From positions 50,563 through 114,562 of the forward strand of contig CAMXCT020002037.1 of assembly GCA_947184155.2 (NCBI GenBank): a DNA stretch of 64,000 nt. The letters are read 5' to 3'. A model generated the notes under the pieces. It did not search any database and was not told the DNA's origin. It worked only from the letters and a program-made list of their open reading frames with translations. Origin of the DNA: Cladocopium goreaui (Eukaryota; Sar; Dinophyceae; Suessiales; Symbiodiniaceae). Position numbers and translations under genes: made by a program. Of this stretch, positions 6,224 through 47,452 are shown one piece after another (the stretch's first letter is position 1; every line of letters begins with the position of its first letter).

Positions 6224-6247
6224 CCCTGAGGATCCGATATTGAAAAA
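6224..6247 (+). repeat. left TIR of hairpin element
   Basis: A 24-bp perfect match to the reverse complement of 14304-14327. Confidence 0.9.
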
Positions 6248-6249
6248 AA

Positions 6250-6400
6250 TCAATCCTGATCAATCCTGATCAATAATATTGAAAATGATTTTTTTCAATA
6301 CCAGGAAAATATGTTTTTCAATATCGAGGATTGAAAGAAAAGATCAATATTTCCAATCAATATCGATCAATAGCATGATCAATATCATATAGTAGTATCA
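6250..6400. repeat. left subterminal GATCAAT repeats
   Basis: Repeated GATCAAT/ATCAATAT units, plus an inverted repeat TATTGAAAATGA..TTTTTTCAATA at 6277-6300. They resemble the units at 14124-14303. Such arrays are often transposase-binding sites (inference). Confidence 0.7.
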
Positions 6401-6516
6401 TCAGCAAGTCAAGACCATCATCAGTCTTCAGCTACAATTGTCAGATCCATTTTTCAAGCATGTAGGGGGCCATTAGAGGCATTCACAACGCGCAAGCTTC
6501 TATTTCATACTCATAT

Positions 6517-6699
6517 GTGCCAGAGCGGTTTTTGCTTATAGCAGGTTTAAACTCATTGCCTGGTCTGGGCCTGAAAGAAGGCCATTCTTCAAAGTTTTGG
6601 GGTTTCAGCTGGTGTGTTGTGGGCTTGAAAGATCAATCATCTTCAAGGGATTTGAATCTGAGGATTTTCAGCTTGCTAGGGCTTGAAAGAAAGCCATGA
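6517..6699 (+). CDS. short upstream ORF (60 aa) overlapping ORF1 start
   Basis: A 60-codon frame whose TGA stop overlaps the ORF1 start as ATGA (6696-6699). It contains hairpin 6568 read as GLKEG, a decayed hairpin near 6621 read as GLKDQ, and hairpin 6680 read as LERKP just before its stop. It could be a regulatory upstream ORF, an exon or chance. Translation is not demonstrated. Confidence 0.3.
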   Translation: MPERFLLIAGLNSLPGLGLKEGHSSKFWGFSWCVVGLKDQSSSRDLNLRIFSLLGLERKP

Positions 6700-7946
6700 C
6701 ATCCAAGGGTGGAGCACGCAGGTCATTGGTGCCACCAGTGGACTTGGATGCTTTGCGAAAAATTTTTGAGACAGCTGTGGCCACCCAAGGTGCTGATGCT
6801 TTTAAACTTGGTGACTATCAGGAGAAAAGTGTAAGCACAGCTGTGAGCTCTGCAGGTTTGCACCACAATGCAAAGTATGTCAAGGAGTTCTACAAAATCT
6901 CAGAAGGAGAAATTCCCTCTGGGCAGTTGAAGCAGTGCATCCTCAAATATGGGTACACTCACAACGACAGTGAGTGGAAGGATGACCTGTGGGCAGGCAA
7001 GCTTGCAAGTCAATTTGTCTGCTTGCTCAGCCATGTGAGAAGACTGAAAAGAGACTCTTCGAAACTAAGGCAGTGCCTGCAGGGAGCTACAGGGGCTGAA
7101 AGGCAATCCATTCTTGAAATTGTGGATTTGCCAGATGCTTGCAAGAAAGCAGCCCCAGGTCCTGAGGATGACCAGGCCTGCAAGAAGGCCAAAGCTGCCA
7201 AGGAGACTTCTTCTGCGAAAGCTGCAGAGGCTGGTGGCCAAGGAAGTTCCAGCTCTGCTTCTTTGAAAGAACCCGAGGAGCAGGCCTGCAAGAAGGCCAG
7301 AACTTTGAAACTACAAGTTTCAGATGTTTCTGTCGACTCCCATGGCTGGCCAGCCATTCTCAATTCTCCAAAGGCTGCAAAAGAAGAAGAAGAAGAAGTG
7401 AAAGATTGCTTTTCCAGAAACATGACAATTCTGGAAAAAATGAGGGTAAGCTGCAAGGAGCAGCTGGATAAAGCTGCACAAGAGGCAGCCCAAGAGTTGG
7501 TTGAGAGCAGACCAGGGCTTGAAAGAAGGTCAGAAATCCAAAAAAAGCCAGCCAGCAAAGAATGCAAAAAAAAGCCAGCTTCGAAGAAAGCTTCCTTGCC
7601 CAAGGCAAAAAGCTTAAGGCCTGAAAGAAGGCCCACAGAGAAGCAAGGACCAACAAAAGAAGCAGCACCACAGCCAGAACCATTGGTGGCAGCAGAAGGG
7701 CCAAGGCCTGAAAGAAGGCCATGGTCAGCAGTGAAAAAAGTCATGGGCAAGGACCAAGCCTATCTCATGGGCCTTTTTGGAAGAGATTGGAAGCTCATCA
7801 TTGGCTGCACCAAAAGAATGGGAAAGATTTTCCCAGGTGGGCATCACGCTGTGATTTTGGAGCTGGAAAAGGTGGCCATGGAGGAGGACATAACAAAGGA
7901 AAACATGAAAGAAAAAAGAGACGATTTAGTCAAAAATGTAGATTGA
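6696..7946 (+). CDS. hairpin-element ORF1, 416-aa basic protein of unknown function
   Basis: Not recognised. Residues 1-150 look folded (mixed hydrophobic and charged, with Trp and Tyr). The rest is Lys/Glu/Ala-rich and probably disordered, except for a short globular-looking end from about 345 (MGKDQAYLMGLFGRDW). Six hairpins fall inside: four read ACKKA or ASKKA (7136, 7175, 7283, 7577) and two read RPERRP (7618, 7705). The ATG at 6696 directly follows hairpin 6680-6695, and another hairpin begins one base after the TGA. No intron is needed. As first ORF of a transposon with a basic tail it may bind nucleic acid, possibly the hairpins (inference). Confidence 0.7.
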   Translation: MTSKGGARRSLVPPVDLDALRKIFETAVATQGADAFKLGDYQEKSVSTAVSSAGLHHNAKYVKEFYKISEGEIPSGQLKQCILKYGYTHNDSEWKDDLWAGKLASQFVCLLSHVRRLKRDSSKLRQCLQGATGAERQSILEIVDLPDACKKAAPGPEDDQACKKAKAAKETSSAKAAEAGGQGSSSSASLKEPEEQACKKARTLKLQVSDVSVDSHGWPAILNSPKAAKEEEEEVKDCFSRNMTILEKMRVSCKEQLDKAAQEAAQELVESRPGLERRSEIQKKPASKECKKKPASKKASLPKAKSLRPERRPTEKQGPTKEAAPQPEPLVAAEGPRPERRPWSAVKKVMGKDQAYLMGLFGRDWKLIIGCTKRMGKIFPGGHHAVILELEKVAMEEDITKENMKEKRDDLVKNVD

Positions 7947-8189
7947 ATGCCTGAAAGAAGGCATACACCTTTCTAACAGGGCAAGGCCTGAAAGAAGGCC
8001 ACTAGGAGGGTTCAGGCCGCAGCCATGTGCAAAGCACGTGGCCAGGACTTTTTTCTTGGCCAAAAAAAATTGTGGTTTGGGGTTTGGGTAAAGTGTTTGT
8101 TTTTGTGGGGCAGGGGATAGCCAACGAAATTTAAAGAAAAACCTCACCGTTTTCACTGTCATTCTTTTTGTACTTAGGTTATGACCTGA
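7947..8189 (+). other. spacer between ORF1 and the small ORF
   Basis: Holds two hairpins. The one at 7948 extends to a 6-bp stem (ATGCCT/AGGCAT); the other starts at 7985. A separate inverted repeat TGGCCAGGACT..TTGGCCA spans about 8039-8066. No ORF is supported. Confidence 0.5.
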
Positions 8190-8396
8190 GTGTTCCAGGG
8201 GTGTTATGTTCACCAAAAAGGGTTTAACATAGTAGGCGAAAGCAATCTGTTTGTTGCCTGCTGCCTCAAAACCGAAGATAGGTGGGGGGGCACCTTTCAA
8301 CCTCTAAGCGCACTTCAACTTAAGGCCTGCAAGAAGGCCCAGCAATTCAATCACTTGCAAATCTTCCAGCTCAAGGCCTGCAAGAAGGCCATCTGA
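8190..8396 (+). CDS. small ORF (68 aa) with two ACKKA hairpins
   Basis: The frame holds two hairpins (8324, 8375), both in the phase where the usual TGA loop would be a stop. Both have TGC instead and read ACKKA. Every spacer hairpin outside proposed frames keeps A or G at that loop position, so this pattern suggests translation. It lies in frame with ORF2 and is separated from it only by TGA 8394 and two codons. It might be a leader ORF, a stop-readthrough extension of ORF2, or an exon. The start at 8190 is simply the first ATG in frame. No homology is recognised. Confidence 0.4.
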   Translation: MFQGCYVHQKGFNIVGESNLFVACCLKTEDRWGGTFQPLSALQLKACKKAQQFNHLQIFQLKACKKAI

Positions 8397-8402
8397 AACC
8401 AC

Positions 8403-9668
8403 ATGACCTGGTGGGTAGGCCGAGCTTATGCTGGCTATGTGCCCTGGGGTCATGAAAAGGATTGGGATGATGGCGACACCTGGACTGGCTGGGAAAGGGA
8501 GCCTGATAGGGAGCTGAGAGACAGGGAGAGAAGGTGGAGGGACAGGGATGAGGAGGAGGAATCATCCTCTGACAACTCCCTGCGCAGGGGGCAGAGGAGA
8601 CAGGAGGAGGAGGCTCCCAGAAGCACACAGGGCCGCCTCTTTGGCCCAAGCCCTGCAGAGGCAGCCAGGGAAGGCCTGCAAGAAGGCCAAAAAGGGAAAA
8701 GCAAAGGCAAAGCCAAGGCCAAAGAAAAGGGGTCAGGTGCAAGCAGCAGCAGGCCTGAAAGAAGGCCAGCTTTTGTCCCTGAGCATCGACCAGGGGAGGA
8801 GGATTGGGACCCTTTCAGGCAAGAAGCCAGGGGCAAGAGGGGAAGGGAAGCGAGAAAGGCTTTGAGGGCCAGAGACCCTGAAGTCCAAGCCAGGAAAGAG
8901 AAGGGCCTGAAAGAAGGCTTTAAGGAAGACAAGGTTCAGCCTTTGCATGAAGGGAGCAGGAAATGGAGGATGATCAAGGAGAGGGAGAAGGAGGTGAAGG
9001 AGGAGGAGGAGCAACTAATGCTTGAAAGAAAGCAGTTGCTGGAAGAGAAGGCAGCCTTCTTGGAAGAGAAGGCTGCATGGCTCAGCAAGCAGGAGATGAG
9101 CCCCAGCCCTGCCAGAGGGGTTGTCCTGCAGGAAGGGCCAGGGGCCAGGCCTGAAAGAAGGCCAAAAAGGAAGGACAGCAGCAGCAGCAGGCCTGAAAGA
9201 AGGCCAAAAAGGAAGGACAGCAGCAGCAGCAGGCCTGAAAGAAGGCCTAAACAAAAAGCCGGCAGATCCTCCTCCTCTTCTTATTCATATGAATACAGTG
9301 AAGAGGAGGAGGTATTTGTGGAGGAGGAGCAGCCAGACTGGCAGGAGGAGGAGGAGGAGAAAGAGGAAAAGGAGGAGGAGCAGCCAAAGAAAAAGGACCC
9401 CAAGGACAAGGAAAAGAAAGCTGCAAAGGAGGAGGAGGAGCGAAAGGAGAAAAAGGTTTCCAAGGAAAAGGAAGCTGCAAAGAAGGAGAAGAAGCCCCAA
9501 AAGGAAGAGAAGCCCAAGGAGAAGGAGAAGGAAGATGACAAGGATATGGAGGAGGGGAAAGCAGCCAAGAAGCGAAAGGAAAGGAAGAAAGTGGTCAAGG
9601 AGGAGGAGGAGGGGCAGGAGGAGGGAAAAGAAAAAAGAGAGAAAGAGGTGGATGCTTCTGACCTGTGA
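8403..9668 (+). CDS. hairpin-element ORF2, 421-aa highly charged Lys/Glu-rich protein
   Basis: Not recognised. The first 40 residues are Trp/Gly-rich. The rest is almost all Glu, Lys, Arg and Asp, with a long charged region from about residue 290 that could form a coiled coil or stay disordered. Seven hairpins lie in frame: GLQEG (8673), RPERRP (8752, 9148, 9190, 9232), GLKEG (8904) and MLERKQ (9019). The three at 9148-9232 form a 42-bp tandem repeat. Hairpin 9669 starts at the base after TGA. A scaffold or nucleic-acid-associated role is guesswork. The very biased composition could also mean relaxed constraint. Confidence 0.6.
   Translation: MTWWVGRAYAGYVPWGHEKDWDDGDTWTGWEREPDRELRDRERRWRDRDEEEESSSDNSLRRGQRRQEEEAPRSTQGRLFGPSPAEAAREGLQEGQKGKSKGKAKAKEKGSGASSSRPERRPAFVPEHRPGEEDWDPFRQEARGKRGREARKALRARDPEVQARKEKGLKEGFKEDKVQPLHEGSRKWRMIKEREKEVKEEEEQLMLERKQLLEEKAAFLEEKAAWLSKQEMSPSPARGVVLQEGPGARPERRPKRKDSSSSRPERRPKRKDSSSSRPERRPKQKAGRSSSSSYSYEYSEEEEVFVEEEQPDWQEEEEEKEEKEEEQPKKKDPKDKEKKAAKEEEERKEKKVSKEKEAAKKEKKPQKEEKPKEKEKEDDKDMEEGKAAKKRKERKKVVKEEEEGQEEGKEKREKEVDASDL
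9148..9247 (+). repeat. 42-bp tandem repeat, each unit carrying a hairpin
   Basis: Hairpins at 9148, 9190 and 9232 are exactly 42 bp apart and joined by AAAAAGGAAGGACAGCAGCA-type linkers. The unit length keeps the reading frame. Confidence 0.85.
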
Positions 9669-10077
9669 GGCTTGAAAGAAAGCCACAGGGAAGAAATTGG
9701 CATGCACAAAAACTTGGCTTGAGAGAAAGCCACAAGGAAGAAAAGTAACCAAAAACAGGTTTGAAAGAAAGCCAAACCACCTCAGGCTGTCTCACCAGGG
9801 GACAGGCCTGAAAGAAGGCCCCCCTGCTTCAGCGACCAATAAATAAAAAAGAAAAAAAAGATAATAAATAATATAATAAGAAATTTAAAAGTAAATAAAA
9901 TATTGAAAAATAAAATAAAATGAAATAATAAGAAATAATAGTTAAGGTAACTGAAAGAGAGCCAATACTATTTGAAAAAAGAAGAAACATTTAATTAAAA
10001 AAAGCATGTCATAAAAAAGTTATAATTTAAAAAAATAACTTCAACTGCGCCTAAACTACGCGAAACCATCCTGTGAA
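9669..10077 (+). other. ORF2-ORF3 spacer with four hairpins and an A/T-rich stretch
   Basis: Four hairpins (9669, 9716, 9758, 9805) follow ORF2 at 42-47 bp spacing, with varied loops (GAAAGA, GAGAGA) and one wobble stem. An A/T-rich stretch with many AATAAA-like words follows (9838-10040). No ORF is supported. Confidence 0.6.
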
Positions 10078-10364
10078 GTTCCCAACTGCGCGAAACCTGC
10101 GCGAAACCATCCTGTGGAGTTCCCAACTGCGCGAAACCTGCGCGAAACCATCCTGTGGAGTTCCCAACTGCGCGAAACCTGCGCGAAACCATCCTGTGGA
10201 GTTCCCAACTGCGCGAAACCTGCGCGAAACCATCCTGTGGAGTTCCCAACTGCGCGAAACCTGCGCGAAACCATCCTGTGGAGTTCCCAACTGCGCGAAA
10301 CCTGCGCGAAACCATCCTGTGGAGTTCCCAACTGCGCGAAACCTGCGCGAAACCATCCTGTGGA
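10078..10364 (+). repeat. seven 41-bp tandem repeats
   Basis: Seven nearly identical 41-bp units, each containing GCGCGAAACCTGCGCGAAACC (a direct double of TGCGCGAAACC), with partial units at both ends. There are no spacers. All overlapping ORFs here are repeat artefacts. The array lies between ORF2 and ORF3, so it could be an internal regulatory or maintenance sequence (inference). Confidence 0.9.
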
Positions 10365-10493
10365 GTTCCCTGGGGTCTGGCAAACTCACACGCATGTTTT
10401 TTTTTTAATGTTAACTTTCAAACTTCATGTAAACCAAAACCTTTTTTTCTGTAGCAATTTCAGAACTCAAATCCCCAGCCGTACTTGGAGGCT

Positions 10494-12031
10494 ATGGCCA
10501 AGAAAAGGCCTGCATCCCTTGAGGGCTTGAAAGAAAGCCAGAAAAAAAAACACAGAAACTGAATGAAAAAAATGAGGAAAGCCAACCACTGAAAGCAACA
10601 CAAGAGACAAGTGCTGAGGAGAAGCAGCAAGAAGGCCTGCAAGAAGGCCAAGTAGGAGCTTCTGAGCCCGAAGCAACTCAGGAAGAAGCAACCCAGGGGG
10701 CAACTGCTGAGGAGCAGCAAGAGGGCCTGCAAGAAGGCCACCAACCAGATGCTTCTGAAGAAGGGAAACCAGCTGCTGAGGCTGAGATAGAGGAAGCAGC
10801 AAAGATGCTTCCAGACAGTGTAGCAAAGGCAGCCCAGGCAAGCCTGAAAGAAGGCTCTGAGGCTGGTGCCACTTTGACTTCTTCCAGGCTCAAACTTCAC
10901 GAAAAAACACAGGCAGCCATCCAAGGCCTGAAAGAAGGCCACCTGTCAGAGGCTGCATTCTGGCAGGAAATCTCCAACAAAGACAGAGCTGCCTTGTGGA
11001 AAAAATATGAAGGAGCCAGGAACAAAGACCCTGAAGCCAAAGCAGCTTGGCTCCAGATGGGTGGCCCAGGTGTCCTGGATCAGAAGAAGCAACTGCTTCT
11101 GCACTTCCTGAAGACTGGTCAGGCCCAGGAAGGGGGCTTGAAAAAAAGCCAAGAAGTCGCCAACTCCAAGAAGGAGAAAGAATGGTTTGAGTGGGTCCCC
11201 TGGAAGCAGATCCTTGACTGGTATGGGGAAGAGGAGGCCCTGGCCAGGGTAGAGAGTGGTTTAATAGCAGTGAAAAAGGTGGGAAAGAAATTCTATGAAT
11301 TTCTCCTGGTGAAGATCAGGACCGAGCTCACACTGGAGCAAAAAAAAAGGATTGCTGCTGAGCAAGAAATAGCACTGCAAGGTGAGGAACTGAAGGCCTG
11401 CAAGAAGGCCTTAGCAGCAGCAAGAACAAAACAGGAATGGGATGACCTTTGGCTTGAAAAAAAGCCACAGAAAGGCTTCCAGGTTGAAGATGCTTTGTCA
11501 GAACCTTCTGAAACTTCTTCTGAACATGAGGACGAAAGTTCAGCAGAGCAACATAATCCTGCAGCAAGTTTCCTGCAAGGCCTGAAAAAAGGCCAGGCTA
11601 TGGTCTCTCAGAAAAAAGAAAAAAGAAATGATGACAAGCAGAAGCACCTCGCAAAGGAAGAGAAAGTCAAGGAGGAGGACAGCAGAGCTTGCAAGAAAGC
11701 TCAGGCAGAGAAGACTAAGATTGCCAAAAAAAAGGAAGCAGACAAAAAATGGCACACAAAGTTAGAGGAAGCCACACAAGTGGGTGAAAACGAAAAGGAC
11801 AGTAAGGTCAAGAAGATGCTGGCCTTGGTCAGCAAAGGAGTGGCTGATTTGAAGAAGGCTTGCAAGAAAGCCAAAGATGCCAGCTGGGGTGCAGATGTCC
11901 TGCAAGCTCTCATCAAATCTAGAGACAGCTTGGAAGATTTGGCAACAGATGGTGAGCTGGAAGGCATCAAGAACCACTTGCTGGAAGCAGCATCAGCTCT
12001 GAAGGCTTTCAAGAAATTGCTCACTGCCTAG
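10494..12031 (+). CDS. hairpin-element ORF3, Lys/Glu/Ala-rich protein, apparent +/-1 frameshift at A9
   Basis: Not recognised. ATG 10494 opens a frame starting MAKKRPASLEGLKES that hits TGA just after a run of nine A (10542-10550). The next frame is open and similar in composition from before that run to 12031, but has no ATG until 10805. I infer one gene with a frameshift at the A run: an indel, a sequencing slip or programmed slippage. Otherwise the protein is the 408 aa from 10805. Its hairpins read GLQEG (10634, 10724), SLKEG (10841), GLKEG (10925), GLKKS/GLKKG (11135, 11579), ACKKA (11395, 11686, 11857) and LEKKP (11451). Hairpin 12036 lies 4 nt after TAG. The region around residues 50-200 of the 10805 version looks most folded. 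Confidence 0.6.
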
Positions 12032-12209
12032 GATTGGCCTGAAAGAAGGCCTGGGACATGGCCACTTTTGCCTTGACTTGCGACAGCATGGTTGCCCCGC
12101 AAAAAAAATAAGCAGCTTGCATGCCCAGCCCCCAGGCAGCTTTTTTTGGGTAAAGAGGTTCACCTGTAAGATACATGCATGCTGCAGCTGTTTTTAATGG
12201 CTCAAGGTC
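12032..12209 (+). other. ORF3-ORF4 spacer
   Basis: One hairpin (12036). Near the end is GGCTCAAG (12199-12206), just before the ORF4 ATG at 12210. It equals the last eight bases of the dinoflagellate spliced leader and is preceded by a T run, but upstream bases do not match well. It could be a relict leader or chance. Confidence 0.35.
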
Positions 12210-14030
12210 ATGCCAGGCATCCATCAGAAAATAGAATTAACAAACACTAGGAAAAGACCAGCTCCAGGCCTGAAAGAAGGCCAGGCTCTAAGCAAGAAAC
12301 TTTTGCAACTTTGGTCCCTGGGGAAATTAAGTAGCTCAGGGCTCCAAGAAATCGCTTTTGCAGCCACTGCAGATGGCTTGCAATGTGAGAGCATAGTGGA
12401 ATTGAGCGGCTTAGGAACCTTTGGTCAATACCCAAGCAATTGCCATAGAGACCTTGTAAGGCTATTAAGGGCTAGGTTGAAAAAGTCCATGCACGGGGGC
12501 TTGCAAGAAAGCCCAACAATTTCCATTCAGGTTCCTGCCTTGGATGCCAAAGAAGAAAATCCAGAGACCAAGGCAGCATGCCACATTGTACTGCCACATT
12601 TGCTGGTTTGGCAATTATTCAGCAGCTATCCTAAGTTGGCTCCTTCGCTTTTTGGCCTTCACAAGTTGAAAGCTTTCTGGGGAAACTTGAAAAGCAATGA
12701 CCCCAGGCTGTGGGACAGTGGCTTGAAAGAAAGCCAAAAACACAAAACCATCCCTCTCTGGCTTCATGGAGATGGTGTCGAATTTTCCACAGACTCCTTA
12801 ATGACATTCACCTGGGGACCCACGCTTTATGCTCCTCAAGGCCTGAAAGAAGGCCCAAGGGAAATGCATCCCAGCCACCCCATGGATAGTTCTTTCCTCA
12901 TAACTGCATGGCCAAAGTCAGCAGCTGCTTCCAACACATGGGTGGAAATCCATGAGGTCATGGCTTGGAGCTTCACTGCTCTTTTCCAAGGTTTTCACCC
13001 AGACGTGGATTGGAAAGGGAGGCCACTGCCAACAAATTTGAAAAGGCTTGCAAGAAAGCCAATTACACCTGAGGGGCATTCCTTCTGGGTGTTCAATTTT
13101 TTAGGCGATTTGGAATACTATGCAAATCACCTAGGTTTCCCCCATTGGCAAAGCAAAAAAATTTGCTGGCTCTGTGATTGTGAGAAAGGAAACCATCTGA
13201 AAAACCCTTTTGATTTCACCTCTGAACCTGGATGGGAAATGAAATCTTTGGAAGGCTTGAAAGAAAGCCCTTGCACCAACCACACTCTGTTCAAAATCCC
13301 TGGTGGCCTACCAGAATACAGAGTGTGCTTCGATGTCTTGCACACTTTAGATTTAGGTGTGACTGCCAGGTTGGCAGGCTCCATCCTACATGCCTGGGCA
13401 TATCCACCTGGATCCAAAAAAGAGGTTGGGCCTGGCAACACTGCCAAAATATGGGCACTACTCAAAGAAGCATACGCAGAATTGCACATCACAGAGAAGT
13501 ACAACAACCTCGTGGTTTCTATGTTTACTTCTGAAAGAAACCCATTTTCACAGCCAGCAAAGCTCAAAGGCCATGCAGGAGAGATTCGACATCTCATGCC
13601 AGCATTAGCCATGGTGGCCTGGAAGAAGGCCAGTGAATGTGAGGCTTTTGCCCACATGGCTGAATGCTGCCACCAAATGGCAAATTTCTATGCCATCATT
13701 TCAGAAGATGATTTGTTCATGAAGGACAGCACAAAAGCTGAGAAGTGCTTGAAAGAAAGCATGCAGCATTACATTTGGTTGCACCGCCATTTTGGAGATG
13801 AAGTCAGATTCACATTGACGCCTAAATGCCACTATGTGGCACACATTGCTTTGATGCTGCATTTCCAAAACCCAGCTACCTGCTGGACATACAAGCAAGA
13901 ATCATTCATGGGATACATTGCAACCTTGGGCCACAGCTGCTCACATGGAACCAGAGCTTCGAGAATCAGTGAATCTTTCATCACAAAGTACACCATGGCT
14001 GTGCAGCTCAGAATCAATGAAATAATTTAG
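12210..14030 (+). CDS. hairpin-element ORF4, 606-aa putative DDE-type transposase
   Basis: Most likely the element's transposase; the family is not settled. Candidate acidic residues are D188 in LHGDGVEF, D375/D381 in FDVLHTLDLGV and E564 in YKQESFMG. A cysteine cluster CWLCDC (319, 322, 324) and KCHYVAH (540-546) could bind metal. The order, with a Cys/His insert between acidic blocks and a late QESFMG..LGHSCSHGTR motif, recalls CACTA/Plavaka-like proteins (family knowledge plus inference). Eight hairpins are in frame: GLKEG (12267, 12840), GLQES (12498), GLKES (12720, 13254), RLARKP (13045), AWKKA (13616, loop TGG) and CLKES (13746). Hairpin 14032 begins one base after TAG. The frame is complete, so it may be active. 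Confidence 0.65.
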   Translation: MPGIHQKIELTNTRKRPAPGLKEGQALSKKLLQLWSLGKLSSSGLQEIAFAATADGLQCESIVELSGLGTFGQYPSNCHRDLVRLLRARLKKSMHGGLQESPTISIQVPALDAKEENPETKAACHIVLPHLLVWQLFSSYPKLAPSLFGLHKLKAFWGNLKSNDPRLWDSGLKESQKHKTIPLWLHGDGVEFSTDSLMTFTWGPTLYAPQGLKEGPREMHPSHPMDSSFLITAWPKSAAASNTWVEIHEVMAWSFTALFQGFHPDVDWKGRPLPTNLKRLARKPITPEGHSFWVFNFLGDLEYYANHLGFPHWQSKKICWLCDCEKGNHLKNPFDFTSEPGWEMKSLEGLKESPCTNHTLFKIPGGLPEYRVCFDVLHTLDLGVTARLAGSILHAWAYPPGSKKEVGPGNTAKIWALLKEAYAELHITEKYNNLVVSMFTSERNPFSQPAKLKGHAGEIRHLMPALAMVAWKKASECEAFAHMAECCHQMANFYAIISEDDLFMKDSTKAEKCLKESMQHYIWLHRHFGDEVRFTLTPKCHYVAHIALMLHFQNPATCWTYKQESFMGYIATLGHSCSHGTRASRISESFITKYTMAVQLRINEII

Positions 14031-14123
14031 AGGCTTGAAAGAAAGCCAAGCCTGGAATGCTGCTGTAGACATGGCTTCAAAGAAAGCCCTGACACCTTCA
14101 GCTTGTCAAAGAAAAAGCTTTGC

Positions 14124-14303
14124 CAAGATCAATATCGATCAATATCGATCAATATCATTTTCAATATTTTCCATCAATTTTAATCAATCTTGATCAATCT
14201 CAAGATCAATATAGGATTGATCATGGTATTGATTTTTGAGGTCCCAACATGTGTCATTTTCAATATTATTGAAAATGATTTTTTTTCAATACAGGGATTG
14301 AAG
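14124..14303. repeat. right subterminal GATCAAT repeats
   Basis: At least five GATCAATATC/GATCAATCT units, and a TTTTCAATATTATTGAAAA inverted repeat near 14258-14276. They mirror the left end. Confidence 0.7.
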
Positions 14304-14327
14304 TTTTTCAATATCGGATCCTCAGGG
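14304..14327 (-). repeat. right TIR of hairpin element
   Basis: Exact reverse complement of 6224-6247, followed by AA, the candidate 2-bp duplication. Confidence 0.9.
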
Positions 14328-17829: not shown

Positions 17830-20800
17830 ATGGCTGACGTTAAGTCAGATAGCGGCGGTGGACAATTCAAGAGGTTCTCAGGAGAGAGCTTGGATGGGAA
17901 AGAACTGAAGAAATGGAAGCTATGGGCTCAAGCCAAAATGGCCGCAACCAAAGACCTGAGTGAAAAACAGCGGGGTCCTTGGGTGTTCACTCTCCTGGAC
18001 GGCTTGGCCTTGGAGACGGTGGAGCATTTGACCTTAGAACAACTGACTGAGGTAGGCGGTGATCAATACGTGTGGAACGCCCTGGAAGAACGTTTTCCAG
18101 ACAAACTGAAACACGATCACTTAGCAGAATGTCTTCACGAAGTTTTCCAGTTAGCTGCAAAAGAAGGTGAAAACATGGCTAGCTGGTGCAGCAGAGTGCA
18201 GGAGACGTTTGCCAAATGCCGTAGGAAAGTGAATGTGGAGTTTCCATCAGAAGCCAGAGGCTGGATAGCTCTCAACCAGTCTGGGTTGAGCCACGATCAG
18301 CGGGCCGTTGTGACGGCTAGGTCCGGTGGCGAGCTCAAGTTTGACGTGGTGACAGCAAGTTTGAGATCATGCTATCCAGAGTTTCAGGTGCCGAGCAGGG
18401 CCAAGCGCAGCAATCCTGTCATGTTGGTTCAAAACTCTGAAGCTGAAACAGCAGAAGACTTCTCAGATGTCGGCGACCAAGTGGTTTTTTCTGAGGTGGA
18501 GGCTCTTTTGGCCGAATATGGAGTACAAGACACAGAAAACTCAGAACAGGAGGTGTTTGAGGAATCTGAGGCAGTCGAAATTCTAGCTGCAACATGGAAG
18601 GAGAAGCGTGCTGAGATCAACAGATTGCAGAAGAGTAGGAATTTCAAACAAGTTGCCACTGTTCAGAAACAGTTTCGCCAAGATGTGACAGATGTTAAGC
18701 GCAGGGCTCGCTGCTGGAGGTGCCAACAAGTGGGACATTTCTCCAGGGACTGTCCAAAACCCAAGGGTTATGGCAAGGGTAGCAGCACGTCCAACTCTGG
18801 GGAGAAGTCGTCCTCAGCTTCTGGAGCAGCAATGGTGGAAGACTTTGTTCCATGTGATCCCAATAGTTCCGAAGTGTATCTGGTCTCTTCACCAGGTTTT
18901 GGTATCATCGACAGTGGGTGTGGCAAAACCTTGATAGGACAGAGCACCTTGAATGCACTGTTCCGCCAGTATGCGGAGATTGGACAACAGTTGCCAGAGC
19001 TTCGGAGAGAAGAGCACCTGTTTCGCTTTGGGAATCAGAACGAGGAACTGGCTCAATATGCGGTCACCCTTCCCATTGGCATCGGAGGTCGTGGAGGTCA
19101 AGTGGATGCCTCAGTGATCAAGGGCACGGCTCCTCTTTTGCTGAGCAGGAGCACCATGCGCAGTTTGGGGGCAGTCCTAGACTTTCAGAAAGAAACGCTT
19201 TCTCTCTCCGGCGCAAAACCAGAAAGGTTGAAAACAAATGCAGCGGGGCAGTATATCATCAGTATCATGGATTTCCCAGCAAACAGTGGACCTGTCGGTG
19301 GTACAGAAATCCCTACTTTGGGGGTGCCAACCAAAGCCTTGTCCAAGCGTGAAGCTCGGGTTTTAGAGTCTTTGGCTGCGGCATGGCAAAAGGGTAACTC
19401 CAAGTGCGTAGTGGCAGAGCTTTTCTCACCACCACGTTTCACCACTGAAGCGGAACGTCAGGGTCTTACTGGGTTGAGTTTTGATTTGAAAAATGGATAC
19501 AACTTGCTGGATAGAAGAACACAGCGAGAAGTAGAGGCTCAACTGGATGAGGTACGACCTGAACTGTTGGTATTGTGTCCAGAGTGCAAGCATTGGGGAG
19601 GTTGGTATCGACTCCATGAACACAAGCTTCCAAACTGGAAGAGAGTGTGGAACCGCAATGTGGCCGAACGCCAAGTGGAATTCTGCATAGCTCAAGCCGA
19701 GCGTCAGTTGAGACGCGGGGGGCGCGTTCTGTTCGAGCATCCGTGGTCATCAGGTGTTTGGAATCATCCACCCATGGCCAAACTTCTCAAGAGCATGCAC
19801 CTGTGTAAAGCATCCATGTGCGCCTATGGCCTGAAGAACCCTGACAACGGCTTGCCGATCCTGAAGCCAACAGGACTCGCCGTATCACATGAGGACATGG
19901 TAGGTTTAGCACAAACATGCCCAGGACATGATGTACACCATACCATAGCCGGAAAACTTAATGATGGGTCGTCCTTGAGTGAGTGGACAGCAGCCTATAC
20001 TCAACAGTTCTGCCAGCATTGGTTGTCATGTGTCACGAGTGTTTGCCATCTTTGTGATCACGCTGCGGTTGAGGACAACTTCTCAACTTTCAACCTTACT
20101 GAGAGCGTTGTAGGAGAGTCTTCCGAAGCCCTTGCAGCCGAAGCCACCACACCAGAGCAGATTCGTATGTCGCTGAAACGTTTGCACAATAATTTGGGGC
20201 ATCCTAGTAACCAAGACTTAGTAAGGGTTCTTACTAATGCTGGGGGTTCCAAAGAAGCCATCGAAGAAGCCAAGAAGTACAGTTGTGAGGTTTGCATTCA
20301 GCGCCAGCGACCGACTCCGTCTCTGCCCGCGTCAGCTCACCAGATTTTGGACTTTGGACACAGGGTAGGACTGGACGTGAAGATACTTCCAGGCTGGACT
20401 CAAAATCAGAAGGTGAAGTGTTTGAACATTGTTGACTACGGGTCCAGTTTTCAAGTCATGTGCCCCTTTTATGAAAATGAAACCGGTCCTCTCCTGAAAC
20501 GACTCTTCGATGAGAACTGGTTGCAATGGGCCGGTCGACCGGTCGAGATCATCGTGGATCCAGCTCAGACCAATTTATCTGAAGCGTTTGCAGGTGCTCA
20601 GGAGCAATCAGGCATTCGAGTTCTCAGCATTGCAGCCGAGGCACATAATCAGCTAGGCAAGGTTGAGAAACATGGTCATTTGTTTGAAGTGATTCTCCAA
20701 AAGGTCTTAGACTCAGCGCAGCCTAGTTCCAAAGAGGAATACCACCAGTGCATTCGTGAAACCATGAATAGCAAGAATGAATCCCTCAATCATCATGGCC

Positions 20801-23340
20801 TCAGCCCTTGTCAACATGTGTTCGGTAGGAATCCCAGGGTGCCCGAAGACCTGATTCAGGAATCTCCGTGCGTGATTGCCGCGACAGCACCGTTGCACAG
20901 TGAAATGCATGCGAGAAGCCATGCCATCCGAACTGCAGCCCGAGTTTCCATGGCACAGTCTCAAGATTCGAAAGCCTTGCGAGTGGCTTTGAATGCACGG
21001 CCAAGGGTTGAGCGTGACTTCCTGCCAGGGGACTTCGTAGCTTACTGGCGTACTCAGAAATATGAGAGAGGAGCCAGATTAGTTGGGGGTAGATGGTTCG
21101 GTACTGCAATTGTCATGGGTAAAGTGGGGCGTAACATTTTAGTGTACCATAGACGCAACATGTTCAAAGTCTCCCCAGAACACCTGAGACATGCCACGTT
21201 GGAAGAACGAGCAGTAGCCCAGTCAGATGGTAGAGAGATGCTAGGGATTGCACAGTATGTTGGAGAAAATGGATCCCTCCGAGGAAGTCACTATGTGGAC
21301 CTTACACAGCAGGGATCACGTGAAGGTCCTGACAATTCAGCTGTAGCAAGACCGACAGCCGAGCATGAGCCTAGCCAGGCCAATCCTGCTCTGTCTCCTG
21401 CCAGCGTCCCGGCTCAGTCCGCCAGTCCGGACAACATGGACATTGTAGCTCCCGGTGAAATCATAGACAAAAGCCCTGCTGAGCCGGAATCCTCAGGTGG
21501 AGACAGCTCCAGTAGCAATCCTTTAACTGCAGCATCCTTTTCGGCAAGACAAGAACCTGGTTCTCAAAGTGCCTATGGTCCAGTTAGACATAGGCATCAT
21601 GGAAAGAAACCTGAACCAATGACCACAGTGTGGCGTCCGGCCGAACTGGTGCCATCAGATTTTATGGAAGCCCATCAGGAGATCACGTCTCACAAGCGCC
21701 AGCCCAGTCGAGCTTTGAGTAGCGAGCCACCGTGCAAATCCAGCAGATCAGAGCCAGATCCGAGAGACGAAGCTCTCTTGTGTGAGGCAAAAGAGCACGA
21801 TGAAGTGTTTCTCGTCACAGAGCAGCAAGGGGAATCCGCTGAAGTTTTTGTTGCAAATTTTCTCAAAAAGAAGTTGCAAACAGAACTCCATCACTCCAAT
21901 AATCCAACTGACCTTCAGGAAGCTATCGACGAGGCAAAAGTGACAGAGTGGCTGACTCTTCAGGATGAGAAACGAGCCCTGCATGTAGTTCCTCCGCATC
22001 AGGCACATAGCATCCGCAGACACCAAAGCCATAGAATCATGTCAAGTCGTTTTGTCATCACCAAGAAAACTGAGGACGGTGATTCCAAGATCAAGGCCAG
22101 GTGGTGTCTATGGGGTCATCACGATCCAGACCTTATCCAAAAAGTGTTGGCTGGAAAGTGTCACTCACCTACGTTGTCACAGCTGGCCCGAAACCTGCTC
22201 CTGCAGCTCATTGTCAGCCACCAGTGGACCATGAAACTTGGGGATATCAAAGGTGCTTTTCTAGAAGCTGATGTCCAGAAGCAAATGGCCGACAATCCAG
22301 TGTATGCAGAGTTGCCACCAGGAGGGGTTCCAGGCGTTGAAAAGGGGTCCCTGATTCAAATAACTGGTAACATCTATGGAGCAAACGATGCACCCCATAA
22401 TTGGTACGTTGAGTTCGATGCCGAAGCCCGTCGTGCTGGTCTCACACGCAGCAAGTTTGACAGTTGCTTGTATTTCTGCCATGGACCACAAGGGGATTTA
22501 CAAGGGGTTTTGGGAGCTCACGTTGATGATACCATAACTGGGGGTCAGGGCCACGAATATGATCAAGCCATTGCCTATTTGCGCCAGAGGTTTCCTTTCA
22601 GAAAATGGAGAGAGGGTCAAGGAGAATTTCTGGGGGTCATGTACGAACAGTGTCCAAACACCAAAGAAATTACCTTTCAGCAAACCGAATATGCACAGCA
22701 TATCAGGCCGATCAAGGTTTCAAGAGACCGAGCCCACACTCCATGGAAGCCAGCCACGGCAGCCGAAATGGCTTCCCTGCGCGCGGTGAATGGTGCATTG
22801 GGATGGCTGTCATCCCAGAGCCGGCCAGATTTGGCAGTTCAGACATCCATGTCCCAACAGTGCTTTCCTCAACCATGTGTTCAAGATCTACTGGCGGCCA
22901 ATCAGGCCATTCGTAGAGCTCGTCAACATGCAGACATGAAGTTGAAGGTTCCCTATATTCCTCCGGAAGATCTCACAGTAGCTTTTTGGTCCGATGCAGC
23001 ATTTGCAAATCACATAGATCACAAGACTCAAGGTGGTTGGTTGTTGGCTCTGACAAGTAAAGAAATGTCAAAAGGGAATGATGTTCCATTGTCATGCTTG
23101 GGATGGAAGTCATATCGATTGCCAAGGGTTGTATCCTCCACCATGGGGGGTGAGTCTCAAAGTTTTGCAAGTGCCTCAGGGGTAGCCGAATGGTGTCTTC
23201 TGATTTTGGCCGAAGCAATAGACGGTCCTTTCAGTCTTAGGGACACAGACCAGGTGCTGAAGCGCCGCCAACCTATCGGAATGACCGACTGCCGTTCGTT
23301 GTATGATCATCTTATTTCACTTAGGCTTGTCCAGTTGTAA
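17830..23340 (+). CDS. copia gag-pol polyprotein, 5' part (interrupted in RNase H)
   Basis: Encodes gag, protease, integrase, reverse transcriptase and most of RNase H. Visible motifs: zinc knuckle CWRCQQVGHFSRDC (C295, C298, H303, C308); protease IIDSGCGKT (D361); integrase HHCC from LHNNLGH to CEVCIQRQ (about 785-822) with catalytic D near 848, D near 911 and E near 945; RT blocks LGDIKGAFLEAD and HVDD (D1566, D1567); RNase H FWSDAAFA and GGESQS. Gag-integrase-RT order defines Ty1/copia. Residues after DHLISL come from the insertion, so the stop at 23340 is foreign; the true C-terminus resumes at 44271. The interrupted protein would lose the end of RNase H. Otherwise the frame is intact. 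Confidence 0.95.
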   Translation: MADVKSDSGGGQFKRFSGESLDGKELKKWKLWAQAKMAATKDLSEKQRGPWVFTLLDGLALETVEHLTLEQLTEVGGDQYVWNALEERFPDKLKHDHLAECLHEVFQLAAKEGENMASWCSRVQETFAKCRRKVNVEFPSEARGWIALNQSGLSHDQRAVVTARSGGELKFDVVTASLRSCYPEFQVPSRAKRSNPVMLVQNSEAETAEDFSDVGDQVVFSEVEALLAEYGVQDTENSEQEVFEESEAVEILAATWKEKRAEINRLQKSRNFKQVATVQKQFRQDVTDVKRRARCWRCQQVGHFSRDCPKPKGYGKGSSTSNSGEKSSSASGAAMVEDFVPCDPNSSEVYLVSSPGFGIIDSGCGKTLIGQSTLNALFRQYAEIGQQLPELRREEHLFRFGNQNEELAQYAVTLPIGIGGRGGQVDASVIKGTAPLLLSRSTMRSLGAVLDFQKETLSLSGAKPERLKTNAAGQYIISIMDFPANSGPVGGTEIPTLGVPTKALSKREARVLESLAAAWQKGNSKCVVAELFSPPRFTTEAERQGLTGLSFDLKNGYNLLDRRTQREVEAQLDEVRPELLVLCPECKHWGGWYRLHEHKLPNWKRVWNRNVAERQVEFCIAQAERQLRRGGRVLFEHPWSSGVWNHPPMAKLLKSMHLCKASMCAYGLKNPDNGLPILKPTGLAVSHEDMVGLAQTCPGHDVHHTIAGKLNDGSSLSEWTAAYTQQFCQHWLSCVTSVCHLCDHAAVEDNFSTFNLTESVVGESSEALAAEATTPEQIRMSLKRLHNNLGHPSNQDLVRVLTNAGGSKEAIEEAKKYSCEVCIQRQRPTPSLPASAHQILDFGHRVGLDVKILPGWTQNQKVKCLNIVDYGSSFQVMCPFYENETGPLLKRLFDENWLQWAGRPVEIIVDPAQTNLSEAFAGAQEQSGIRVLSIAAEAHNQLGKVEKHGHLFEVILQKVLDSAQPSSKEEYHQCIRETMNSKNESLNHHGLSPCQHVFGRNPRVPEDLIQESPCVIAATAPLHSEMHARSHAIRTAARVSMAQSQDSKALRVALNARPRVERDFLPGDFVAYWRTQKYERGARLVGGRWFGTAIVMGKVGRNILVYHRRNMFKVSPEHLRHATLEERAVAQSDGREMLGIAQYVGENGSLRGSHYVDLTQQGSREGPDNSAVARPTAEHEPSQANPALSPASVPAQSASPDNMDIVAPGEIIDKSPAEPESSGGDSSSSNPLTAASFSARQEPGSQSAYGPVRHRHHGKKPEPMTTVWRPAELVPSDFMEAHQEITSHKRQPSRALSSEPPCKSSRSEPDPRDEALLCEAKEHDEVFLVTEQQGESAEVFVANFLKKKLQTELHHSNNPTDLQEAIDEAKVTEWLTLQDEKRALHVVPPHQAHSIRRHQSHRIMSSRFVITKKTEDGDSKIKARWCLWGHHDPDLIQKVLAGKCHSPTLSQLARNLLLQLIVSHQWTMKLGDIKGAFLEADVQKQMADNPVYAELPPGGVPGVEKGSLIQITGNIYGANDAPHNWYVEFDAEARRAGLTRSKFDSCLYFCHGPQGDLQGVLGAHVDDTITGGQGHEYDQAIAYLRQRFPFRKWREGQGEFLGVMYEQCPNTKEITFQQTEYAQHIRPIKVSRDRAHTPWKPATAAEMASLRAVNGALGWLSSQSRPDLAVQTSMSQQCFPQPCVQDLLAANQAIRRARQHADMKLKVPYIPPEDLTVAFWSDAAFANHIDHKTQGGWLLALTSKEMSKGNDVPLSCLGWKSYRLPRVVSSTMGGESQSFASASGVAEWCLLILAEAIDGPFSLRDTDQVLKRRQPIGMTDCRSLYDHLISLRLVQL

Positions 23341-45789: not shown

Positions 45790-46675
45790 AATATATATAT
45801 ATATATATAGGGAATGGCGATACAATAGAAATCGCAATCTTCAACCGACAAACAGCTAGCATGGCTTGACCATATGCGACCTGGCCTTGGGATGCCGAAA
45901 TGTGGGGCTTTCCCCGGCTGGAGGGTTAATTTCATGGAAAATCCTAATCTAAAATGGATGATCTGAGGGTACCCGGTATTTCTGGGATTCTCCCATTGCA
46001 TCAGTCGTCGAGTTGCCACAATGGGCACCTTGCTTCGCTCCGACAAAAGCTTGCACCACATCTCCGCACGACACCAACCCCTGCGACGTGTCCCCCAGTC
46101 GGACCACCAAACAGCGAAAGAGAAAATACCAACGGAGATCTTGCAGGGTTCATCCCACTTAGCAGGGTTCATCCCACTTAGCAGGGTTCATCCCACTTAG
46201 CAGGGTTATCCCACTTAGCAGGCTTCATAAAGCAAGTAACCAACTACTATATATGAAATGATCCTGGATGTGTCTGAAATTGGGCACACGTTGGATCCGT
46301 TGGCTGATCATCATTTTCCACATGACATAAATCATGAAAAATGACTATTTTAAGGGGTATACCCGGTATACCCTATGTTCAGACACATCCAAACACCATA
46401 TCAAGTTGGTTGGCCATATCCCATCAAATATTCCCATTATATCTCCATCTTGTCATTGTTTGATACCTTAGGTTCATCCATCTTCGTGGGTACGCCAGCA
46501 TTTTCAGACACCCCAAAAATATGACGGGGATTCCATCCACCACGCCCAAAGATGACCAGTGCTTCTTAAGGGCTTCGTCACCACCAACCACAAGTATAAG
46601 CTTGAATCCCATAAAAAGACTCCCATGACACCCATGGTAAAACCATCATTTCAGCTGGTGACTTTGACATGTTTG
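45790..46675. repeat. gene-free stretch with four 19-20-bp tandem units
   Basis: About four units of CAGGGTTCATCCCACTTAG lie at 46144-46222. A short inverted repeat GGGTATACCCGGTATACCC lies near 46356. No gene. Confidence 0.7.
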
Positions 46676-47452
46676 ATGATTAAACCACCATTTTTGATGG
46701 TTAAACCACCATTTCTGATGGTTAAACCACCATGTTTGATGGTTAAACCACCATTTCTGATGGTTAAACCACCATGTTTGATGGTTAAACCACCATTTCT
46801 GATGGTTAAACCACCATGTTTGATGGTTAAACCACCATTTCTGATGGTTAAACCACCACGTTTGATGGTTAAACCACCATTTCTGATGGTTAAACCACCA
46901 TGTTTGATGGTTAAACCACCATTTCTGATGGTTAAACCACCATGTTTGATGGTTAAACCACCATTTCTGATGGTTAAACCACCACGTTTGATGGTTAAAC
47001 CACCATTTCTGATGGTTAAACCACCATGTTTGATGGTTAAACCACCATTTCTGATGGTTAAACCACCATGTTTGATGGTTAAACCACCATTTCTGATGGT
47101 TAAACCACCATGTTTGATGGTTAAACCACCATTTCTGATGGTTAAACCACCACGTTTGATGGTTAAACCACCATTTCTGATGGTTAAACCACCATGTTTG
47201 ATGGTTAAACCACCATTTCTGATGGTTAAACCACCATGTTTGATGGTTAAACCACCATTTCTGATGGTTAAACCACCACGTTTGATGGTTAAACCACCAT
47301 TTCTGATGGTTAAACCACCATGTTTGATGGTTAAACCACCATTTCTGATGGTTAAACCACCATGTTTGATGGTTAAACCACCATTTCTGATGGTTAAACC
47401 ACCATGTTTGATGGTTAAACCACCATTTCTGATGGTTAAACCACTAGTTTGA
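46676..47452 (+). repeat. 21-bp satellite, about 37 units, with 294-bp higher-order period
   Basis: The unit is TGATGGTTAAACCACCA plus TTTC, TGTT or CGTT. Plain and T/C-variant units alternate to make a 42-bp dimer. The rarer CACG variant recurs at 46859, 46985, 47153 and 47279, spaced 126, 168 and 126 bp, giving a 294-bp super-repeat. Each unit contains the inverted repeat TGGTTAAACCA. The 297-aa frame through it (MVKPPFL repeats) is an artefact of 21 being divisible by 3. Confidence 0.92.

Follow-up and report, generated by a model that had tools for sequence, protein, structure and literature searches.

A short hairpin dispersed along the coding strand of a dinoflagellate DNA transposon, with family-specific variants in related elements

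The boxB hairpin of lambdoid phages occurs once or twice per operon, accompanied by boxA, and acts in the antitermination of bacterial RNA polymerase. The boxB hairpins have GNRA-like penta- and hexaloops bound by N peptides, and in GACAA, the P22 loop, the looped-out base is the C, which contacts the N peptide (PMC12550061). Other described cases are NC-4, an engineered nucleocapsid whose mRNA contains a boxB tag and three lab-evolved boxB-like stem-loops that are bound by its own product (PMC11055949), and Rickettsia palindromic elements and REPs, palindromes that lie in frame inside open reading frames (ORFs) (PMC3733652). Here we analyze a hairpin that recurs along an 8.1-kb transposon in a stretch of 64,000 nucleotides (hereinafter, the window) from the dinoflagellate Cladocopium goreaui (assembly GCA_947184155.2, contig CAMXCT020002037.1). 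The transposon spans positions 6224-14327 of the window, is bounded by 33-nt inverted ends and contains four ORFs on the plus strand (ORF1 to ORF4), the last of which encodes the predicted transposase. Selection acts on the structure of the sense-strand RNA of this element and its relatives, family by family; the hairpins are confined to one strand, and their family-specific loops track the phylogenetic tree of the transposases. The dozens of copies in this element family, along with the variants in the related families examined, point to a hitherto undescribed means by which a mobile element could label its own messages.

A hairpin confined to the coding strand

The element carries 46 copies of a hairpin of the GGCYT-loop-ARGCC type, with a 5-bp stem and a 6-nt loop, all on the coding strand, the first starting at 6568 and the last ending at 14088; the original prediction, made from the sequence alone, had given the same limits and about 45 copies. 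Scanning the plus strand of the window with GGCYTGMAAGAARGCC yields 30 exact, 9 one-mismatch and 6 two-mismatch matches, all within the element, and the minus strand yields none at 0-2 mismatches. The 46th copy (7577; four mismatches, 5/5 paired) was added by hand to the 45 scan matches. A covariance model derived from the 46 copies, a check that the prediction had proposed, recovers all of them at E<=0.0017, the next match in the window being at E=0.36. Neither the consensus scan nor the model detects the hairpin in the other 56 kb of the window, in agreement with the claim that it stops at the boundaries of the element. All 45 scan-picked copies have 5/5 standard pairs, though pairing was no selection criterion, and the dinucleotide-shuffled element contains 0.12 such sites on average, with a maximum of 2 (60 shuffles). 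As a clustering control, an exact scan of IMG/VR with GGCCTGMAAGAAGGCC returned 74 stretches with one match apiece and no clustering. A search of Rfam at gathering scores gave 0 matches in the window.

The copies are listed below; the rows are based on the consensus scan and the covariance model, except for hairpin 7, which is based on selection by hand and the model. The relative on contig 5 and the protein clades mentioned in some rows are discussed in the next section.

Hairpin 1: 6568..6583, +, ORF1 leader
Hairpin 2: 6680..6695, +, last base adjoins the ORF1 ATG
Hairpin 3: 7136..7151, +, ORF1; outer pair U-A
Hairpin 4: 7175..7190, +, ORF1
Hairpin 5: 7283..7298, +, ORF1
Hairpin 6: 7516..7531, +, ORF1; two G-U pairs
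Hairpin 7: 7577..7592, +, ORF1; weakest copy, loop CGAAGA, hand-added, E=0.0017
Hairpin 8: 7618..7633, +, ORF1
Hairpin 9: 7705..7720, +, ORF1
Hairpin 10: 7948..7963, +, 1 nt past the ORF1 stop
Hairpin 11: 7985..8000, +, downstream of ORF1
Hairpin 12: 8324..8339, +, ORF2 leader
Hairpin 13: 8375..8390, +, ORF2 leader
Hairpin 14: 8673..8688, +, ORF2
Hairpin 15: 8752..8767, +, ORF2
Hairpin 16: 8904..8919, +, ORF2; outer pair G-U
Hairpin 17: 9019..9034, +, ORF2; outer pair U-A
Hairpin 18: 9148..9163, +, ORF2; within a 42-bp tandem unit
Hairpin 19: 9190..9205, +, ORF2; within a 42-bp tandem unit
Hairpin 20: 9232..9247, +, ORF2
Hairpin 21: 9669..9684, +, adjoins the ORF2 stop
Hairpin 22: 9716..9731, +, downstream of ORF2; loop GAGAGA
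Hairpin 23: 9758..9773, +, downstream of ORF2; pair 3 U-G
Hairpin 24: 9805..9820, +, downstream of ORF2; double compensatory change relative to contig 5
Hairpin 25: 10524..10539, +, ORF3 start; double compensatory change relative to contig 5
Hairpin 26: 10634..10649, +, ORF3
Hairpin 27: 10724..10739, +, ORF3
Hairpin 28: 10841..10856, +, ORF3; outer pair A-U
Hairpin 29: 10925..10940, +, ORF3
Hairpin 30: 11135..11150, +, ORF3; loop GAAAAA
Hairpin 31: 11395..11410, +, ORF3; double compensatory change relative to contig 5
Hairpin 32: 11451..11466, +, ORF3; double compensatory change relative to contig 5
Hairpin 33: 11579..11594, +, ORF3
Hairpin 34: 11686..11701, +, ORF3; outer pair A-U
Hairpin 35: 11857..11872, +, ORF3
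Hairpin 36: 12036..12051, +, 4 nt past the ORF3 stop
Hairpin 37: 12267..12282, +, ORF4; site common to both main protein clades
Hairpin 38: 12498..12513, +, ORF4; site common to both main protein clades
Hairpin 39: 12720..12735, +, ORF4
Hairpin 40: 12840..12855, +, ORF4; double compensatory change relative to contig 5
Hairpin 41: 13045..13060, +, ORF4
Hairpin 42: 13254..13269, +, ORF4; site common to both main protein clades
Hairpin 43: 13616..13631, +, ORF4; loop GGAAGA; may be a side effect of the conserved VAWKKA residues
Hairpin 44: 13746..13761, +, ORF4; outer pair U-A
Hairpin 45: 14032..14047, +, 1 nt past the ORF4 stop
Hairpin 46: 14073..14088, +, downstream of ORF4; loop CAAAGA

All copies are fully paired, as expected from the claim that the stem varies only in a paired way; the two G-U exceptions named with that claim become four G-U pairs in three copies (7516, which has two, 8904 and 9758). 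Among the 46 copies, pair 1/16 is G-C in 38, U-A in 4, A-U in 3 and G-U in 1; pair 2/15 is G-C in 45 and G-U in 1; pair 3/14 is C-G in 45 and U-G in 1; pair 4/13 is C-G in 26, U-A in 19 and U-G in 1; and pair 5/12 is U-A in 46/46. The second position of the loop is A in 31 copies, C in 13 and G in 2, and the fifth is G in 43 and A in 3. When only the 18 distinct copies are counted, changes on both sides occur in 13 cells compared with 3.8 in shuffles, and the covariation score reaches 0.472 compared with 0.207, with 0/500 shuffles as high in either case.

Counting the edges, ORF1 to ORF4 have 11, 13, 12 and 10 copies, respectively. The 13 copies outside the ORFs are each at most 136 nt from an ORF end, an arrangement never equalled in 20,000 random placements within the same spacers, and every stop codon (4/4) has a hairpin downstream of it, at 1, 0, 4 and 1 nt (0/200,000 random placements); the middles of two spacers (8001-8323 and 9821-10523) contain no hairpins. 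This placement may reflect confinement to mature mRNAs. Pyrimidine-rich AG sites at 8177 and 10454/10463 could be spliced-leader acceptors, and nine bases just upstream of the ORF4 ATG (12198-12206), preceded by a T-run, are identical to the 3'-terminal bases of the spliced leader of dinoflagellates and might be the remnant of an mRNA end. A tandem array with a 41-bp period (10001-10410) that includes GCGCGAAACCTGCGCG lies in the hairpin-free spacer that separates ORF2 from ORF3 and could be a promoter array.

The distribution of the copies bears on the possibility that the hairpins form in single-stranded DNA and serve replication or transposition, given that confinement to one strand and pairing would suit an exposed DNA strand too. 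We consider this very improbable because the copies outside the ORFs hug the genes, leaving the spacer middles empty, and because ORF4 has the predicted fold of the RAG1/Transib class of transposases, which act on duplex ends.

Hairpins within coding sequence use all three reading frames, and copies are also found at the untranslated edges of the four genes. Of the copies whose frame would turn the loop into a TGA stop, 8/8 have C or G in place of A, versus 7/38 elsewhere (Fisher p=2.5e-5). The stem is formed at 32/32 coding sites, versus 4.9 expected from the peptides and the codon usage of the remaining ORF sequence; because these sites were chosen as hairpins, it is fairer to note that wherever the typical peptides are encoded in these ORFs, the DNA has a hairpin (25/25). 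A cause at the protein level is thus ruled out by the use of three frames, the untranslated copies and the peptide count. In P0073, a frameshifted homologue of ORF1, three motifs are spaced as in the in-frame P0064, and cross-reading the two frames with the residues of P0064 gives GGC[CT]TGCAAGAAGGCC as the DNA at all three; with the Thr of P0051 at the first site, one base is inconsistent. Covariation can also be read from the homologous proteins: of the 169 cases with Gly first, 159 are unambiguous, and a C-start codon follows in 148 of these; of the 17 with Cys first, 16 are unambiguous, and an A-start codon follows in 13 (p=3.0e-13). The other frame reads Pro-Arg in 34 cases, Leu-Lys in 20, of which at least 10 represent one homologous site, Pro-Lys in 8 and Leu-Arg in 5 (p=1.6e-6).

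The hairpin in close and distant relatives

All relatives were taken from the same assembly (1,165,616,438 bases, 6202 contigs; the window is on contig 2037). At loci with 44-77% transposase identity, the GGCYT consensus (<=2 mismatches) is found only on the transposase strand, so that the predicted restriction to the coding strand, 46 versus 0 in the window, extends to the relatives that have this hairpin; with any stem permitted, 0-4 extra chance hairpins appear antisense per stretch. The loops vary (GAAACA, GGAACA, GTGACA, GTAACA, GGGATA and others), and among the GGCYT-N6-ARGCC hairpins of the window and three relatives, 113/115 have a G-N-R-A-N-A loop. The loop is 6 nt long in 79/80 hairpins of the three relatives in a scan permitting 4 to 8 nt. 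Over the 115 hairpins of these four elements, pair 4/13 is U-A in 54, C-G in 53, U-G in 8 and C-A in 0; because U-G occurs but C-A never does, the coding strand is the strand that folds. We rejected a duplex DNA site for a dimer, whose half-sites would vary independently, yet C4 with A13 is absent from the 115 hairpins.

The element on contig 5 is 63% identical to that of the window over 7503 alignment columns. Seven of the 46 window hairpins fall in gaps, and of the 39 ungapped homologous sites, 32 keep 5/5 pairs (16 identical, 16 changed), one (9716) is 4/5 paired with an unlike loop, and six have 1 or 2 pairs, the hairpin being lost or misaligned; hence sites are kept whole or lost. Five of the 32 kept hairpins show double compensatory changes at pair 4/13 (9805, 10524, 11395, 11451 and 12840). 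Where only one side of the stem has changed (at 7516, 8904 and 10724, and in pair 3 of 11451), the change creates G-U or converts G-U to G-C. The 30-nt flanks of the 46 sites are 39-82% identical between the two elements. Thus, uncompensated stem changes in a relative, which the original prediction had named as evidence against it, were not seen, and the five double changes and 32/39 fully paired sites, along with the three frames and the single strand, bear out its claim of selection on RNA structure within transcripts regardless of what the protein reads.

Conserved positions are also relevant to the notion of a very small mobile palindrome multiplying inside the element in the manner of Rickettsia palindromic elements, which had been proposed as the nearest analogy. 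The many copies across genes and spacers, some in local 42-bp tandem units, would fit such spread. However, 32 of the 46 sites are common to a relative with 63% identity, and the ORF4 sites near residues 20, 97 and 349 are common to both main protein clades (tree of 28/34 homologues), and a single strand is used, with loops that change by lineage. The analogy fails because the positions are old and common to relatives and only one strand is used, and we regard a mobile palindrome as extremely unlikely.

More distant relatives have the same design with other loops. There are at least 77 transposase matches in the assembly and, among the matches listed, 41 are at 32-36% identity; 18 of these, chosen by score group with no prior knowledge of their hairpins, were read, and 23 are unread. 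Contig 258 (C258; 36% transposase identity) has no hairpin of the window type and 47 of another, 47 sense versus 1 antisense, with a stem that is mostly NNCUU/AAGNN and a G-N-C-A-A loop, GACAA being among its loops; its outer pair is C-G in 32, U-A in 8, G-C in 3, A-U in 3 and G-U in 1. Each of the 17 further relatives (3.4 kb around the transposase) shows a sense excess of one GNRA-like class, 10-42 versus 0-3 antisense; pooling the commonest loop class of each, picked after inspection, gives 344 sense versus 21 antisense. The background in the remainder of the window is 0.15 to 1.4 such hairpins per strand in 3.4 kb, the highest rate being that of the GNRA class (9 plus, 37 minus). Whereas the original prediction treated the hairpin as a feature of one transposon, the related families read have versions of their own, with GNRA-type loops of 4, 5 or 6 nt.

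GNRA tetraloops characterize six of the 17 relatives. Those of C1908 and C417 are mostly GGAA, with U-G at pair 3 in 65/73 (two C1908 pieces) and 22/24 (C417); those of C6081 and C1511 are mostly GCAA; and those of C2112 and C699 are a mixture of GCAA, GAAA, GAGA and other loops, pair 3 being most often C-G in the latter four. Five others have GNCAA loops, two have GNAAA, and four have loops around GNUAA/GNUGA, with GNU(A/G)A fitting 17/21, 14/22, 9/18 and 10/18 pentaloops. C6081 and C1511 are nearly identical on the transposase tree, and C2403/C4660 and C6184/C136/C5555 are alike by counts or loops rather than by sequence comparison; the 17 relatives therefore represent fewer independent families. 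A 9.4-kb stretch of C1908 contains 74 sense versus 2 antisense copies along four ORFs, and the six elements read over 8-10 kb contain 24 to 74 copies each. Hairpins with other loops are roughly balanced between the strands, with exceptions both ways (L113, 6-nt loops, 46/25; L117, 4-nt, 28/84; L126, which has AT repeats, 159/92 and 185/82). ORF4 (10/34) and ORF1 (3/43) homologues lacking the peptide motif had been considered as hairpin-free outgroups; this use was withdrawn, given that the DNA of equally distant relatives has other loops.

Two local repeats were observed in these stretches. In L126 (contig 1908), GNRA hairpins at 2557-2665 of the merged stretch are exactly 18 nt apart and form a local array, and L106 and L095 (contig 152, 45500-55938) contain about 100 copies of a short repeat with GACTTTGTGAAGGCAGAAT that is hairpin-capable and unrelated to the loop classes.

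In a non-circular test, sites were chosen by the loop and the closing pairs only, and pairing of the outer stem was then scored against 500 shuffles. The outer stem is fully paired at 44/60 sites in the window (shuffled mean 20.2), at 36/52, 28/45 and 22/43 in relatives of the same loop class (18.3, 15.3 and 11.9), at 47/53 in C258 (23.6) and at 67/71 in C1908 (20.6); 0/500 shuffles reach the observed value in any of the six elements. The same anchors on the antisense strand give 0/5, 0/13, 0/6, 0/8, 1/1 and 1/6, and the rest of the window 0/57 and 2/41. On the tree of 15 transposases, the five loop classes require 4 changes, the minimum possible, versus 8.3 in shuffles (0/200); the tree used 15/23 loci because the frame finder gave less than 250 aa for the other eight.

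Possible function of the hairpins

The loop classes GNRANA, GN(C/U/A)RA and GNRA can, judging by sequence only, all be read as GNRA type, the pentaloops being GNRA with one base inserted before R, as in the P22 boxB loop (PMC12550061), and probably take a GNRA-type fold. Such loops could dock with receptors, whether in their own copy or in others, compacting the RNA with no dedicated protein, which would fit the GNRA-like rule kept in the classes read. The inserted bases vary by family though the receptor would be the same, and this makes docking seem quite improbable. Because the identity of the stem is free at several pairs while the loop rule, the closing pair and the length are fixed in each family, and because many equal sites are kept, the hairpins appear to be protein binding sites. 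We consider it fairly likely that all mRNAs of the element carry them as binding sites for an RNA-binding protein, a different one in each family.

Under this scenario, each 16-nt copy would fold in the sense transcript, its 5-bp stem ending in a closing U-A pair beneath a GNRA-type loop, and the copies across the four genes, in coding sequence and untranslated edges, would offer many equal sites to one RNA-binding protein, such that each mRNA would be coated or multiply tethered. Related families would use the same design, each with its own loop (GNRA, GN(C/U/A)RA or GNRANA) and stem preferences and, the mark being family-specific, it would have to change together with its reader. The reader would probably be encoded by the element, and our guess at a candidate is the Arg-rich N-terminal segment of ORF2. 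The purpose might, speculatively, be the handling of the element's own mRNAs; the likeliest use would be separate handling, be it in stability, export, local translation or packaging. In a genome full of relatives, this would give an advantage to the proteins of the family itself.

C258 and C1908 have four successive sense ORFs resembling ORF1-4 (ORF1-3 matched by eye). Near the N-terminus of ORF2, 8/17 stretches, from families of five loop types, share the motif N-x-[KV]-x-R-[PL]-x-G-x-G-[TS] and, behind it, an Arg-rich run that contains RR or RQ; the motif was read off the matches to a looser scan pattern, whose ninth match, C699, is something else. In the loop class of the window itself, the ORF2 N-terminus is Trp- and Arg-rich.

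The reader could also be a host factor acting in export, stability, translation or silencing escape, with the loops differing through different host readers or drift. The RNA-level evidence fits this equally well, and the hairpins lie in coding regions and edges, where host mRNA factors act. The loop class, however, shifts with the transposon lineage inside one genome, whereas a single shared reader should hold it constant, and the hexaloop version was not found in the other 56 kb of the window; thus, we view a host-factor site as rather unlikely.

Several observations weigh against a reader that recognizes the hairpins family by family, or against parts of the evidence for it. Two of the five covariation measures, pairs with both-sided change (276/500) and further pair types (132/500), are not above shuffles. 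Predicted folding in context is partial, with a mean stem probability of 0.78-0.82 and some sites below 0.2, and on the antisense strand the stem probability reaches 0.55 because the stem is palindromic. Among the 13 homologues with Ser first, the expected T-start codon is clear in 1, with C in 5, G in 3 and the rest ambiguous, so the A-U outer pair is unsupported at the protein level, and the 8 Pro-Lys cases, several within conserved KKPA, speak against pairing. The pentaloops of C136 and C5555 fit GNU(A/G)A in only 9/18 and 10/18, and GNRA and GNCAA are each split in two on the transposase tree rather than forming single clades. Single sites are expendable, given that 14/46 window hairpins are lost or in gaps in the contig 5 relative, and the confinement to the element is seen on the scale of the 64-kb window. 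As for the candidate reader, the ORF2 motif was not found in 9/17 stretches scanned, some of which may not cover ORF2 and which include all three of the window's loop class; the likeness of the Arg-rich segment to phage N peptides is presumed rather than computed, and the predicted structure of ORF1 matched no known fold.

The transposon and described systems

The remaining features of the element are the following.

6224..6256, +, terminal inverted repeat at the left end (33 nt); 94% complementarity with 14295-14327; begins CCCTGAGGATCCGATATTG
14295..14327, -, right terminal inverted repeat, pairs with the left repeat
6696..7946, +, ORF1, 416 aa; helical N-terminal domain, a low-confidence, probably disordered middle carrying the ORF1 hairpins, and a small C-terminal domain
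8403..9668, +, ORF2, 421 aa; N-terminus Trp-rich, then Arg-rich; candidate hairpin-binding protein
10494..12031, +, ORF3; first ATG at 10494, frame broken in an A-run near 10540-10547, open downstream
12210..14030, +, ORF4, 606 aa; putative DDE transposase with a predicted RAG1/Transib fold

The frame change in the A-run of ORF3, read by eye, could be a mutation or a sequencing error. Pfam gave no credible match for ORF1-4, and a sequence search of PDB nothing credible for ORF1, ORF2 or ORF3. The predicted fold of ORF4 matches RAG1/ProtoRAG/Transib over nearly the whole chain at a sequence identity of about 11%. D188 and D300 are nearly invariant in 34 sequences and E564 is invariant in 14; these are candidates for the acidic DDE triad, with a spacing that may resemble that of RAG1. 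Unlike RAG1/Transib, which produce a 5-bp target duplication, this element has flanks compatible with a 2-bp AA duplication within a decayed trinucleotide repeat (one insertion inspected), and its ends begin CCCTGAGG, which differs from RAG1/ProtoRAG/Transib and from the CACT(A/G) of CACTA (EnSpm) elements. No relatives of ORF4 were found in IMG/VR and GTDB contigs. Named-species homologues come from Cladocopium goreaui and Durusdinium trenchii, both Symbiodiniaceae, as the suggestion of a dinoflagellate origin would have it. The assembly contains at least 15 full-length ORF4 copies at 99-100% identity, the window copy included, indicating that the family spread recently.

Elsewhere in the window, an intact 1836-aa ORF at 17830-23340 resembles a Ty1/copia polyprotein by eye and lacks the hairpin consensus at 0-2 mismatches, and a 297-aa ORF at 46559-47452 is built from repeats of an MVKPP-type unit, which makes it a minisatellite with an open reading frame.

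DNA transposons are usually seen as genes between terminal repeats; here, the coding sequence itself is under dense selection for RNA structure, which shapes codon choice in every frame and extends into the untranslated edges. Loop types that sort with lineages in one genome make a natural series for the co-change of an RNA-binding protein and its site, and whether DNA transposons mark their own mRNA, as is more often asked of retroelements and RNA viruses, can be tested directly here; the different hairpin sets could also become new RNA tags. Among the matches listed from the open-access literature (listings and the starts of abstracts, with subscription journals and most preprints outside), we found no published description of such hairpins.

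Compared with the known systems, Rickettsia palindromic elements and REPs are scattered over unrelated genes and thought to be mobile, whereas here the positions are common to relatives, on one strand, with none in the rest of the window. The dispersed packaging signals of RNA viruses (MS2, STNV, parechovirus, HBV) are alike in having many short stem-loops with a common loop motif on one RNA; here, the carrier is a DNA transposon, the hairpins are near-identical and no capsid gene was recognised (ORF1 has no fold match). NC-4, unlike this transposon, is artificial, has four stem-loops and is not a mobile element. The boxB hairpins of phages lambda, P22 and phi21 are alike in the short stem closed by U-A, the GNRA-type loop with lineage-specific extra bases and, as proposed here, the lineage-specific pairing of hairpin and reader; the likeness in stem and loop is, for the transposons, drawn from the letters only. 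The P22 loop GACAA (PMC12550061) is one of the loops of C258. We tentatively raise the less probable possibility of a RAG1-fold superfamily with GNRA-type marks every 100-200 nt on four mRNAs, in which the Arg-rich ORF2 of each family would read only its own messages, an independently reached, many-site eukaryotic counterpart of N/boxB. This would also be a natural example of mRNAs of a mobile element that are coated by way of sites distributed over their coding sequence. The difference from boxB itself lies in the number and the host: 46 copies over four genes, and 24 to 74 per element in six elements, in a eukaryote.

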